Below are positions 2,243-27,698 of a stretch of DNA of 64,000 bases, piece after piece. Numbering within the stretch: the first letter of the stretch is position 1; every line of letters starts with the position of its first letter. The notes below the pieces were generated by a model, which worked only from the letters and a program-made list of their open reading frames with translations, had not been told where the DNA came from and searched no databases. Source of the stretch: Phosphitispora fastidiosa (lineage in GTDB: Bacteria > Bacillota > Thermincolia > Thermincolales > UBA2595); assembly GCF_019008365.1 (NCBI RefSeq), contig NZ_JAHHUL010000001.1:372001-436000 (forward strand), read 5' to 3'. The position numbers and the translations under genes were made by a program.

Positions 2243-2800
2243 TTAGCTTGCTGCGACAATCTTGCGAATCCCTTCGATAAAAGCGTTAAAACTCAAAGAA
2301 CAATTTGTATCAATCTTCATGAATTTAGCAATTTTTTTCGAACCACTATATTTTTGATATTCGGGCACCATTTTTTGCAGTACTTCGCACGGGTTAGCAA
2401 GTTTATCTGGGTTTCGAAATTGAGCTTTCTCTTGTTTTCTAGCAATTCCTTTGTAATTGAAAGCTTTTTCAACTGCTGAAAGGTCACCTAAAAACCATGA
2501 TTCCAACTCGTGACAGACCACACGAACTAACGCATCAGTTCGTCCGCCTTCAAAGCACAGTTGCAATAGCCTTTGTTTAACCTGTTTGCAATCACTATTG
2601 TCCTGGTCACGAAGCACTACAAACTGTACTTCGGGAATTCTATAAGCACGCAATTTACGAGGAATTGATTTCTCCATGTCTGTTTTACCTTCATGTTTAA
2701 TAGTATGAAAGGTACATCCGTCTGGTAATATGGATGGAAGTATTTCGTCTAAAACTGCTTTCATTGAAATCTCTTCCAATAAAAATACTATATGCTTCAT
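2243..2800 (-). CDS. TOPRIM-like protein, DUF4276 type, partner of the AAA ATPase
   Basis: A 185-residue protein. Near the N-terminus LLEEISMKAVLDEIL places a Glu where TOPRIM proteins have their first acidic residue; FVVLRDQDNSDC gives the Asp-x-Asp motif, and HELESWFLGD is typical of DUF4276 proteins. TOPRIM folds of this kind are nucleases in OLD- and PARIS-like systems. The start chosen (ATG at 2800) overlaps the ATPase stop by four bases (ATGA), implying translational coupling. The pair is AT-rich compared with its neighbours, suggesting acquisition. A role in phage defence or DNA repair is inferred from family and pairing only. Confidence 0.7.
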   Translation of the reverse strand: MKHIVFLLEEISMKAVLDEILPSILPDGCTFHTIKHEGKTDMEKSIPRKLRAYRIPEVQFVVLRDQDNSDCKQVKQRLLQLCFEGGRTDALVRVVCHELESWFLGDLSAVEKAFNYKGIARKQEKAQFRNPDKLANPCEVLQKMVPEYQKYSGSKKIAKFMKIDTNCSLSFNAFIEGIRKIVAAS

Positions 2801-3978
2801 TGCGGTCCAGCTCCCTCGAAGAAGCCTTGCTTCCATAATGCCCCTGGCAAATCACCTTCAACTACTAAATTTCTGAGCAGTTCATCGTCGGATGCACGTT
2901 TAACTTCACTGTAACCATCACTTTTTGTTAACCAAAATAATTCGTTTAATTCAACTCCGTTAACAAAATCAGGCGAATGCGTAGAGATAAACACTTGTCC
3001 TCCCGCTCGTGTGTAAGCTCTAAACTCTTCTGCAAGTTCAAATAAAAGTTCGGGATGCAGTTGATTTTCAGGTTCCTCAATACATAACAATGGGTGTGGC
3101 TTGGGGTCATTCAATAATAACAAGTAAGCAAACATTTTTATAGTCCCATCAGAAACATATCTCGCAACAAACGGGTCTTTAAAAGAACCATCTTGAAACC
3201 TGAGTACTATTCGTCCATCGGGAGTTTCCACTGCTTCTACAGACTTTATACCTGGGACTCTGTATTCCATTTTGCGTAAAATTTGCTTAAATTTTTCCGG
3301 ATAATGTTGATACATAAACTGCGCTACTAGTGGCAAGTTCTCTCCTGTAGGCGAAAGGTGTTCTGCGTAACCCGCATCAGCACTAGCACGAGCCGCTTGA
3401 ACATGAAAATCGGAAACATGCCACCCTTCAATTAATCTCCTGAAAGCAGCTACTTGCTTAAACTTTTGAAATTGCCCTAGTCCTTTAATAGCAAGAATGT
3501 CTGGCGAATCAAGTTTTTGTTCTTCACGCTCTTCCTTTACCCCTAATCTACCATATTCGCTTTCATTTACGATAGCTGTCCCTGAGCCATTTGAAAAATC
3601 CAGAAAGTGCCATGGTGCACCTTGTTGTCCACGACGATATTTTAATACTTCTCTTGATACTACTGGCAGACCAGAGCAGTCTAAACCAATATGGAGCTCA
3701 TATGTAACTAATGGTTCCCCCGGTTCTGGCCTAAATTTAATTTCAAATTCGATTGGTCCTTGCTGGTCTCGTGATACAACTTCCTTAAATCCGCCTCGTT
3801 TTGTTAAGGCTGCTCTTACATTGTCTATCAAGGAATCATGCAAAAAACCAAAAGCATCGAACAAAGTTGATTTTCCGGAGCCGTTCGCTCCTAAAAAAAC
3901 AACCATATCCGGTAAATTAACGAGTCTTAGGTCTTTAAAAATCTTAAAATTCTTTAACCGTAGTCCTTCAATTTTCAT
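2797..3978 (-). CDS. AAA family ATPase (AAA_21/RecF-like SMC-type)
   Basis: A 393-residue ATPase with an ABC/SMC-like head. Walker A GANGSGKSTL lies at ~29-38, a signature-like YVSDGTIKM near 290, and Walker B LLCIEEPENQLHP near 310, followed by the H-loop STHSPDF near 345. This arrangement (RecF/OLD-like, no long coiled coil) is common in two-gene anti-phage modules. The ATG at 3978 follows GGAGGGG and begins MKIEGLRLKNFK; the upstream in-frame codons are not needed. It is the first gene of a two-gene operon with the TOPRIM-like gene and has its own promoter at 4055-4084. Confidence 0.85.
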   Translation of the reverse strand: MKIEGLRLKNFKIFKDLRLVNLPDMVVFLGANGSGKSTLFDAFGFLHDSLIDNVRAALTKRGGFKEVVSRDQQGPIEFEIKFRPEPGEPLVTYELHIGLDCSGLPVVSREVLKYRRGQQGAPWHFLDFSNGSGTAIVNESEYGRLGVKEEREEQKLDSPDILAIKGLGQFQKFKQVAAFRRLIEGWHVSDFHVQAARASADAGYAEHLSPTGENLPLVAQFMYQHYPEKFKQILRKMEYRVPGIKSVEAVETPDGRIVLRFQDGSFKDPFVARYVSDGTIKMFAYLLLLNDPKPHPLLCIEEPENQLHPELLFELAEEFRAYTRAGGQVFISTHSPDFVNGVELNELFWLTKSDGYSEVKRASDDELLRNLVVEGDLPGALWKQGFFEGAGPQ

Positions 3979-4054
3979 AAGACCCCTCCAACAATAATCT
4001 TTCAAATAATATTCTTCATAAAAATTAATTACCCTTCCAAAAACACCCTTTATT

Positions 4055-4084
4055 ATTATATCTTGCCTAATCTTTTCTAAACAA
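4055..4084 (-). promoter_or_regulatory. Promoter of the AAA/TOPRIM cassette
   Basis: On the minus strand TTGTTT (4079-4084) and TATAAT (4055-4060) are separated by 18 bases, about 75 bases upstream of the ATPase start. The -10 is perfect; the -35 has two mismatches. Confidence 0.55.
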
Positions 4085-4192
4085 AATTTCAATCATAGCT
4101 ATATTTCGTCCGTACAAGACAAGTGCCAAACACATATTTTGTATATTATTGGTAACACTAACGGCAAATACCTTATCAAGGAGCAGGTTAAT

Positions 4193-25808: not shown

Positions 25809-26549
25809 TTATCTGAGTTCTAATGCAGCCAATCCGGCAGCACCGTAAAGCGGCGCTTCCTCGCCCAACTCCGCCGGCAGGATATCCGGCATATTCTTTC
25901 CTGCGTGCCTGTGCCAGGACAGGTTTACTGTTTTCCAATAGCTCTCATTCTCAGTTCCTGGTAAACCGTGAAAGACAATCACGCCGGCGCTGATTTCCCC
26001 GGAAAGTCTCCGCAGCTCCGGAAAAAGTTTCCTGTCCCACTCCTTAACTGTCCCGTAATCCCCGGCATCGCCCGTGAATACTTTGATTTCGTCTCGCAGC
26101 AGCCTGCCGTCTTTAATAATTCGTACCTCAACACAGTCCCCGAAATAGACCGTAATTGTATTTTTCTGTCCCCATCCGGCACCCTCTTTCAATTCTGCCA
26201 GGGCAATCACATTAAGAAGGTCGTCTACAAAAACCGGTTTGTCCAGTAAACGCTGCGCCATCGCGGTAATAGGCACGTTTTCCCATTTCATTTCAGGCGC
26301 GGTTGTGATCACACCGTTTTTAAAATCAACCTGGCCGTCGATTGCAATACCTATCCCGGCAACATTTTCATATTTCGAGCCACGATAATCAACGAGGTAC
26401 TTAACACCTGCAGACAACCTTTCCACAACAAGGTTAGGTTCATGAATATCCAAATTCTCTTCCCGGAAATGCAGGTAATGGCCCCGCAAATCAAACATCC
26501 CTACCTTTACGGAATTAGCTTTAATATGAACACCCATTGTATATCTCAT
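25809..26549 (-). CDS. Degenerate ROK-family protein (no HTH)
   Basis: A 246-residue protein resembling the sugar-kinase-like half of ROK proteins: MGVHIKANSVKVGMFDLRG at the N-terminus, GIGIAIDGQVD, and LYGAAGLAALEL at the C-terminus. It lacks the DNA-binding domain of ROK repressors, the usual phosphate-binding DxGxT sequence is altered, and the zinc motif of ROK proteins is not seen. It is likely not an active kinase; ligand sensing is possible. It is divergent from the RdhA-like gene and ends against the pst Pho box. Confidence 0.68.
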   Translation of the reverse strand: MRYTMGVHIKANSVKVGMFDLRGHYLHFREENLDIHEPNLVVERLSAGVKYLVDYRGSKYENVAGIGIAIDGQVDFKNGVITTAPEMKWENVPITAMAQRLLDKPVFVDDLLNVIALAELKEGAGWGQKNTITVYFGDCVEVRIIKDGRLLRDEIKVFTGDAGDYGTVKEWDRKLFPELRRLSGEISAGVIVFHGLPGTENESYWKTVNLSWHRHAGKNMPDILPAELGEEAPLYGAAGLAALELR

Positions 26550-26747
26550 ACCATTCCCACTCCTTCTTTATGATTAGCTGTCGAGACATATCTAATACTG
26601 TTTGTTTATATTACCATTTTCTCGCGATTTTTTGAATCGTAAAATTATTTCTGTTTCGGGAAGGAATCTTTTTGAAAAAATAGAATCTCTGATATTATTT
26701 CAAAAGCAGCACTGAATTCAAATAATCTTAAAAGGAGCGGCTAATAA

Positions 26748-27698
26748 ATGAACAAAAAACAATTCTTGGGCAGTACCGAAATAGTCGGCCGCCAGGAACG
26801 TTTTGACCAGCGCAATGTAGCCTTTACCCGGCTGGGTATGGGGCTGCTTGGCGAAGATGTCAAAGACTGCTGGATGAGCGAATCTCCCGATCCCTTCTGG
26901 CGTATGCTCTACGCCTATACCAGAAAAGAAAACAGTATTGTCTGGCACCTCCGCCGAGCCGTCAACGGTCCGGTTAAGCCGGAGCGGGTAAAACTGGACA
27001 GCCCTGGCGAAACCAGCACAAAGATTAAGAGAGCAGCTAAATTCTTCGGGGCCTCTCTGGTTGGCATCACTCTTCTGGACCAGGCTTATGTATATACCCA
27101 CCGCGGTCGGAACACCGACCTGGAAGATGGAACCTTCGGAGAAGAAATTGTAAACAATCATAAGTATGCCATTGTAGTGGGCTATGTAATGGATTATGAC
27201 CACATAGAAAAATCCAATAGTTATGAATCTGATGCAGAAACCGGAAGGGCGTATGTAGAAGCAGCCAAAATAGCAGTTATGCTGGCGGAGTTTATCCGTG
27301 AGCTGGGATACCCGGCCCTGGCACATCACTTCAGGCAGGAAGAAGTGCTGCACGCCCCCCTGGCGGTCGCTGCCGGCCTGGGAGAACTGGGCCGCAACGG
27401 TTATGTCATCTCCCCTGATTATGGCCCCCGGTTCAGGACAGGTGTGGTAACCACCGACCTGCCTATGGAAATTGACAAACCCACTAACAACCATATTCAG
27501 GACTTTTGTAATTACTGTGCTATCTGTTCCCAGCTATGTCCGGCTGATGCCATTCCAGACGGCGAAAAAACCGTTGTCCGCGGGGTCAGTAAATGGCCGC
27601 TAAATGCCGATGCCTGTATAAAGTACTGGGCCGCTGATCCGGACAACAACCTGGCCTGTGCCCTTTGTATGAAGTACTGCCCCTACAATACCCGGTAA
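26748..27698 (+). CDS. Reductive-dehalogenase-like corrinoid/Fe-S protein, cytoplasmic, short
   Basis: A 316-residue protein. The middle shows RdhA-family features: AAKFFGASLVGITLLD, the Tyr-containing YVYTH, ELGYPALAHHF and AGLGELGRNGYVISPDYGPRFR with TDLPMEIDKP. The end has two cluster motifs, C-x2-C-x2-C-x3-CP and C...C-x2-C-x3-CP. In RdhA enzymes a cobamide and two Fe-S clusters reduce organohalides. This copy has no Tat signal, no rdhB anchor gene nearby, and stops right after the second cluster, so it is a short soluble member. QueG is a distant alternative, but its typical sequences are not seen. The substrate is unknown. The start follows AAAAGGAGCGG. Confidence 0.82.
   Translation: MNKKQFLGSTEIVGRQERFDQRNVAFTRLGMGLLGEDVKDCWMSESPDPFWRMLYAYTRKENSIVWHLRRAVNGPVKPERVKLDSPGETSTKIKRAAKFFGASLVGITLLDQAYVYTHRGRNTDLEDGTFGEEIVNNHKYAIVVGYVMDYDHIEKSNSYESDAETGRAYVEAAKIAVMLAEFIRELGYPALAHHFRQEEVLHAPLAVAAGLGELGRNGYVISPDYGPRFRTGVVTTDLPMEIDKPTNNHIQDFCNYCAICSQLCPADAIPDGEKTVVRGVSKWPLNADACIKYWAADPDNNLACALCMKYCPYNTR

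Follow-up and report, generated by a model that had tools for sequence, protein, structure and literature searches.

We found that the gene at positions 26748 to 27698 (+ strand) of the window, a stretch of 64,000 nucleotides from Phosphitispora fastidiosa, encodes a 316-residue reductive dehalogenase (RdhA) homologue that ends just past its second 4Fe-4S cluster motif. The protein has the family affiliation, fold and catalytic residues of an RdhA, has neither a Tat signal nor a C-terminal tail nor an rdhB partner, is under purifying selection, and is paired with a ROK-like gene. We consider it fairly likely that this member of the RdhA superfamily is a cytoplasmic, non-respiratory reductase containing a cobamide and Fe-S clusters, with electrons probably coming from a soluble donor. 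RdhAs that are cytoplasmic and lack Tat and rdhB have been described before; what is new is the minimal architecture stopping at the cluster, its conservation, the correspondence of the missing part to a quinone-docking module, and the ROK-like partner. The gene comprises the following features.

26731 to 26737, + strand: ribosome-binding site AAAGGAG, read off the sequence and conserved in orthologues L026 and L027.
26748 to 27698, + strand: tail-less rdhA homologue, 316 aa (open reading frame, profile, PDB matches, tree and AlphaFold model).
27240 to 27254, + strand: codons T165 to Y169, with the substrate-site Thr and the catalytic Tyr (alignments, residue counts).
27435 to 27437, + strand: codon of R230 (alignment, residue counts).
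27507 to 27680, + strand: two 4Fe-4S cluster motifs, C254 to C311, with W294 inside (sequence).
27681 to 27698, + strand: gene end, the five codons for PYNTR and the stop codon following C311, the quinone/RdhB-docking tail missing (sequence, orthologue and tail comparison, PMC10624902).

The ATG at 26748 follows the ribosome-binding site at a distance of about 11 nt, and the codon immediately 5' of this ATG is an in-frame TAA, so that an in-frame N-terminal Tat peptide is impossible. Indeed, no Tat signal was found in the protein or its orthologues, and a hydropathy scan found none of the N-terminal transmembrane helices that characterize transmembrane (hybrid) RdhAs. All eight cluster cysteines (C254, C257, C260, and C264; C290, C304, C307, and C311) are present, forming the motifs CxxCxxCxxxCP (C254 to C264) and CxxCxxxCP (C304 to C311, with C290), and only five residues follow C311 in what is a single RdhA core. 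A sequence-only reading of this DNA had described a 316-residue protein with RdhA core motifs and two Fe-S motifs, lacking an export signal and ending right after the second cluster; the open reading frame, the profile match and the eight cysteines bear this out, and we can add that the end is fixed in four orthologues.

The RDH model TIGR02486 matched the protein at 1.7e-45 and 156.3 bits, just under its curated cut-off of 160.35, and the QueG model TIGR00276, whose cut-off is 200 bits, reached 51.5. The Pfam Dehalogenase model PF13486 did not match the 316-residue protein, but it did not match any control either, and its silence is thus uninformative. Among PDB sequences, NpRdhA (5e-52) was matched better than PceA, the Sulfurospirillum enzyme (1.5e-23), and QueG (8e-07). 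The AlphaFold model (pLDDT 89.6) superposed on NpRdhA, PceA and QueG with TM scores of 0.85, 0.76 and about 0.5, respectively, which agrees with the RdhA-type cobamide fold proposed earlier for the protein; a lack of the corrinoid pocket, named beforehand as a refuting outcome, did not emerge from the model. In a maximum-likelihood tree of 71 sequences, the RdhAs, including our protein, were split from QueG and the short QueG-like Fe-S proteins at 100/100, so that the phylogenetic check against QueG suggested at the outset came out on the RdhA side. Taken together, the profile match and tree side, the two 4Fe-4S motifs, and the core fold with its Tyr and Arg place the protein in the RdhA superfamily.

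QueG shares with it the cobamide/Fe-S type of core with two clusters and a conserved Tyr, and many short QueG-like Fe-S proteins likewise end just past the second cluster, so we also weighed whether the protein might, in the manner of QueG, reduce epoxyqueuosine in tRNA or some other epoxide. However, QueG has a DYH motif and a C-terminal HEAT domain (PMC4646009), whereas our protein has RAY at the former position and no HEAT-repeat domain, and a separate 388-aa QueG-type gene exists in G000, one of the four genomes with the tail-less gene. With tree and fold both favoring RdhA, we regard this alternative as very unlikely; tree, fold and motifs all speak against a QueG identity. The short QueG-like 4Fe-4S proteins themselves (L053, L054, L055, and, in the same genome as the window, L076) are 233 to 258 aa long, occur several per genome, and have their C-terminal end shortly past the second cluster.

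Within the RdhAs, the clade of our protein fell together with CprA-like, catabolic and short cytoplasmic homologues in a group of loose support (91/99), and its nearest row outside the orthologues was L005, with 39 percent identity. The label "CprA-like" refers to Desulfitobacterium CprA, which we take these sequences to resemble; no named record of it was among the sequences compared. In AU tests, for which the groups were picked after the tree had been seen, a clade with the catabolic sequences was rejected (p 0.001), as was one with the CprA-like sequences (p 0.001), whereas the tests did not reject grouping it with the short cytoplasmic homologues (p 0.20) or letting it branch off first among the RdhAs, toward QueG (p 0.19). 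Near the closest non-orthologous RdhA relative (G027), a manganese catalase gene (L060, 3890 to 4654, + strand) is divergent from the rdhA homologue, which hints at an oxidative-stress context there.

Alignments equated Y169 with PceA Tyr246 and NpRdhA Tyr426, T165 with PceA Thr242 and NpRdhA Ser422, R230 with PceA Arg305 and NpRdhA Lys488, and W294 with PceA Trp376 and NpRdhA Arg552; these four residues are identical in all four orthologues, our protein counted. The position of PceA Asn272, which is Asn in most RdhAs sampled, is Gln197 in 4/4 orthologues in the MAFFT alignment. Judged from these alignments, the predicted substrate site is that of the PceA-like set except at Gln197. Ser, Lys and Arg occupy the three substrate-site positions in all catabolic (5/5) and CprA-like (7/7) sequences sampled, and Arg and Trp predominate at the R230 and W294 positions in the other RdhAs sampled. 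Since our protein has Thr, Arg and Trp where the ortho-halophenol enzymes have Ser, Lys and Arg, halophenols are not specifically favored as its substrate.

These residues also bear on whether the protein could be a catabolic enzyme that, like NpRdhA and BhbA, dehalogenates aryl halides. Catabolic RdhA enzymes have been described (PMC6797604, PMC10463259), and a vestigial duplicated cobalamin domain is a feature of them (PMC10463259). Like our protein, as judged from its sequence, NpRdhA and BhbA are cytoplasmic and without Tat or rdhB, and they have the same core fold; NpRdhA is moreover the best match in both PDB sequence and model superposition, and near the N terminus the stretch LGSTEIVG is similar to the one in CprA-like proteins. 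On the other hand, NpRdhA and BhbA are 700 to 1100 aa long, carry their own vestigial second domain and often a fused reductase, and use Lys488 and Arg552 for halophenols; our protein has no duplicated or reductase domain, R230 and W294 replace the Lys and Arg found in all 12 catabolic and CprA-like sequences sampled, and the AU tests rejected a clade with either group. A catabolic aryl-halide dehalogenase is therefore an unlikely identity for the protein.

Both other genomes of the genus contain an orthologue (93 and 90 percent identity), as does a metagenome-assembled genome (MAG) of a different genus in the same family (75 percent), whereas searches of five further family members and one member of the order gave QueG-like matches only. 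All four proteins are exactly 316 aa long and end in CPYNTR or CPFNNR, pairwise dN/dS values of 0.05 to 0.13 indicate purifying selection, and the 1 kb downstream of each gene contained no credible trace of an RdhA tail. Equal length and purifying selection imply that the gene was not cut short by a frameshift, and the early end common to the four orthologues implies a fixed ancestral feature. The joint absence of Tat, rdhB and tail could be taken as a sign that a respiratory rdhA has lost its function here and is decaying; this is hardly credible, because the selection test contradicts decay and because the length is the same in four genomes of two genera with cluster cysteines, Tyr and Arg intact. 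Of the 48 RdhAs that we compared, most of them taken from 398 sampled genomes of the phylum, none of the others stops at the cluster; the shortest complete tail among these is 27 aa (L049).

The absence of rdhB, as had been claimed from the sequence, was confirmed at the genome level: an RdhB profile found nothing credible in the four clade genomes (G000, G001, G002, and G007), apart from one match at E 0.05 inside a 568-aa frame, but gave best E values of 8e-32 to 5e-37 in four control genomes. What the tail does in membrane enzymes has been seen in the menaquinol:organohalide oxidoreductase of Desulfitobacterium, where cryo-EM of DhPceA showed that two helices past the second cluster bind menaquinone and, together with the C terminus, dock on PceB; the residues of the menaquinone pocket at or after the last cluster are S486, W487, K489, H495, A498, R499, A511, D515, and Y520 (PMC10624902). 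The numbering of our aligned PceA chain differs from that of PMC10624902 by an offset of 48, and since this offset places Y337 and R396 correctly, our protein stops at about the position of K489 and lacks the remainder. By this alignment, the absent tail would be the counterpart of the menaquinone- and PceB-docking module of membrane dehalogenases. Besides, among the 44 RdhAs with a readable neighborhood, a tail WxH motif went with a neighboring rdhB (13/15 with the motif, 2/29 without; Fisher 2e-7, uncorrected for ancestry).

Respiratory RdhAs such as PceA and CprA thus share with our protein the cobamide and two-4Fe-4S core and, for PceA, equivalents of Tyr246, Arg305 and Trp376, but they have a Tat signal, RdhB and a menaquinone-binding tail past the second cluster, whereas our protein has none of these and is not of the respiratory type. 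The cytoplasmic and non-respiratory nature proposed in the sequence-only reading is accordingly supported. The simultaneous lack of export signal, anchor and quinone module fits a cytoplasmic enzyme with a soluble donor.

Other RdhA homologues share parts of this organization. Dehalococcoidia DEH-C11 and Desulfobacula toluolica are described as having homologues with neither Tat nor rdhB (PMC4959651), and Tat-less ones are described from subseafloor metagenomes (Smkt1 cluster, PMC3939436); those of DEH-C11 and the Smkt1 cluster resemble our protein in being predicted cytoplasmic or Tat-less, mostly with no rdhB. The short cytoplasmic homologues L029, L031, L033, and L042 (about 355 aa) are also without Tat and rdhB and keep the Tyr, Arg (or Lys) and Trp, but unlike our protein they have a tail, of 45 to 47 aa and without a WxH motif. 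A further clade (L036, L040, L043, L045, L047, L048, and L051) comprises homologues of about 400 to 420 aa without Tat or rdhB. Beyond the second cluster they have a Cys-rich tail, in most of them with the pattern CxxCxxC...GC, that might form another metal site. L039 (1189 to 3261, + strand) encodes a 690-aa frame with two tandem RdhA cores, cluster motifs in both and no Tat.

In all five genomes of one genus (g190; L058, 5018 to 6633, L098, L099, L100, and L101), a cobalamin adenosyltransferase gene stands immediately before a short cytoplasmic rdhA and abuts or overlaps it. This pairing supports a cobamide link for short cytoplasmic RdhAs, with a corrinoid-handling role as a possibility. 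The tail-less protein might then be a cobamide-handling reductase that reduces or dealkylates corrinoids, for example delivering cob(I)alamin to an adenosyltransferase, and does not act on organohalides. The adenosyltransferase in g190 is of the PduO type, the B12-processing protein CblC shows a weak fold likeness to our model, and the grouping with the short cytoplasmic clade was not rejected. However, the gene link comes from one genus of a related clade, no adenosyltransferase gene adjoins the tail-less rdhA, and the latter keeps the Tyr and Arg of dehalogenase catalysis; we thus hold this role to be rather unlikely.

Upstream of the tail-less rdhA lies a divergent gene that recurs with it.

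25809 to 26549, - strand: degenerate ROK-like protein of 246 aa, divergent from rdhA (Pfam ROK, motif checks).
26550 to 26747, no strand: intergenic region common to the divergent pair, with promoter-like matches at chance level.

Pfam ROK matched the N-terminal half of the 246-aa protein (4e-13), and the DxGGT nucleotide motif, the CxCGxxGCxE zinc motif and a helix-turn-helix were all absent from it, so it does not qualify as a ROK kinase. Its AlphaFold model (pLDDT 67) is too weak for interpretation. In 21 genomes searched, the short form occurred in all four with the tail-less rdhA, always adjoining it, and in 0/17 others, where the remaining matches, one 181-aa frame excepted, were ROK proteins of ordinary length; as the four genomes amount to only two genera, independent support for the pairing is thin. 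On the MAG contig, the other conserved neighbors are lost and the ROK-like gene is kept, still divergent. Its dN/dS is 0.16 to 0.18. A regulatory or sensing role for this protein is our guess; the promoter and terminator scan of the intergenic region gave no clear excess over chance, and a literature search on reductive dehalogenases with the ROK family found no report among the papers covered.

No halogen-related gene adjoins the tail-less rdhA. The cobamide gene cobT, which had been pointed out as lying in the same window, is indeed present (1101 to 2141, + strand), but it is 25 kb away and no operon neighbor; with cobT under its own riboswitch, we discarded the idea of a functional link between the two genes. 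That cobalamin riboswitch (618 to 798, + strand, 112.7 bits) lies ahead of cobT, and through it B12 probably controls the assembly of cobamides. Elsewhere in the window, a DUF4276 protein gene (2243 to 2836, - strand) overlaps an AAA ATPase gene (2797 to 4092, - strand), and the two match the PADLOC defence candidate HEC-01, a two-gene system (E 4e-71 and 2e-183).

For the cytoplasmic, non-respiratory reductase that we favor, the cobamide would be bound base-off in the nitroreductase-like core, and the two 4Fe-4S clusters would pass electrons to it. Because the menaquinone- and RdhB-binding region is missing, the outer cluster would probably take its electrons from a soluble carrier, for example ferredoxin or flavodoxin. 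The reaction may be the reductive cleavage of a carbon-heteroatom bond, most probably carbon-halogen, in a small molecule entering the cell, with Tyr169 as the putative proton donor and Arg230 assisting. The purpose might be detoxification or salvage, perhaps controlled by the divergent ROK-like protein. Nothing ties the protein to any particular metabolic intermediate, the kind of substrate suggested for it earlier. A broader and speculative idea, which we think improbable, is that the short cytoplasmic RdhA homologues, the tail-less one included, are reductases of cobamides belonging to the cell or of another non-halogenated metabolite and not dehalogenases, each with a dedicated partner (the adenosyltransferase in one clade, the degenerate ROK-like protein here).

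These findings touch on two questions, namely, which electron donors serve non-respiratory RdhAs and what role RdhA homologues play in organisms not known for organohalide respiration. A core-only enzyme of 316 aa with a recurrent partner gene would be a small expression target for direct tests of donor and substrate.
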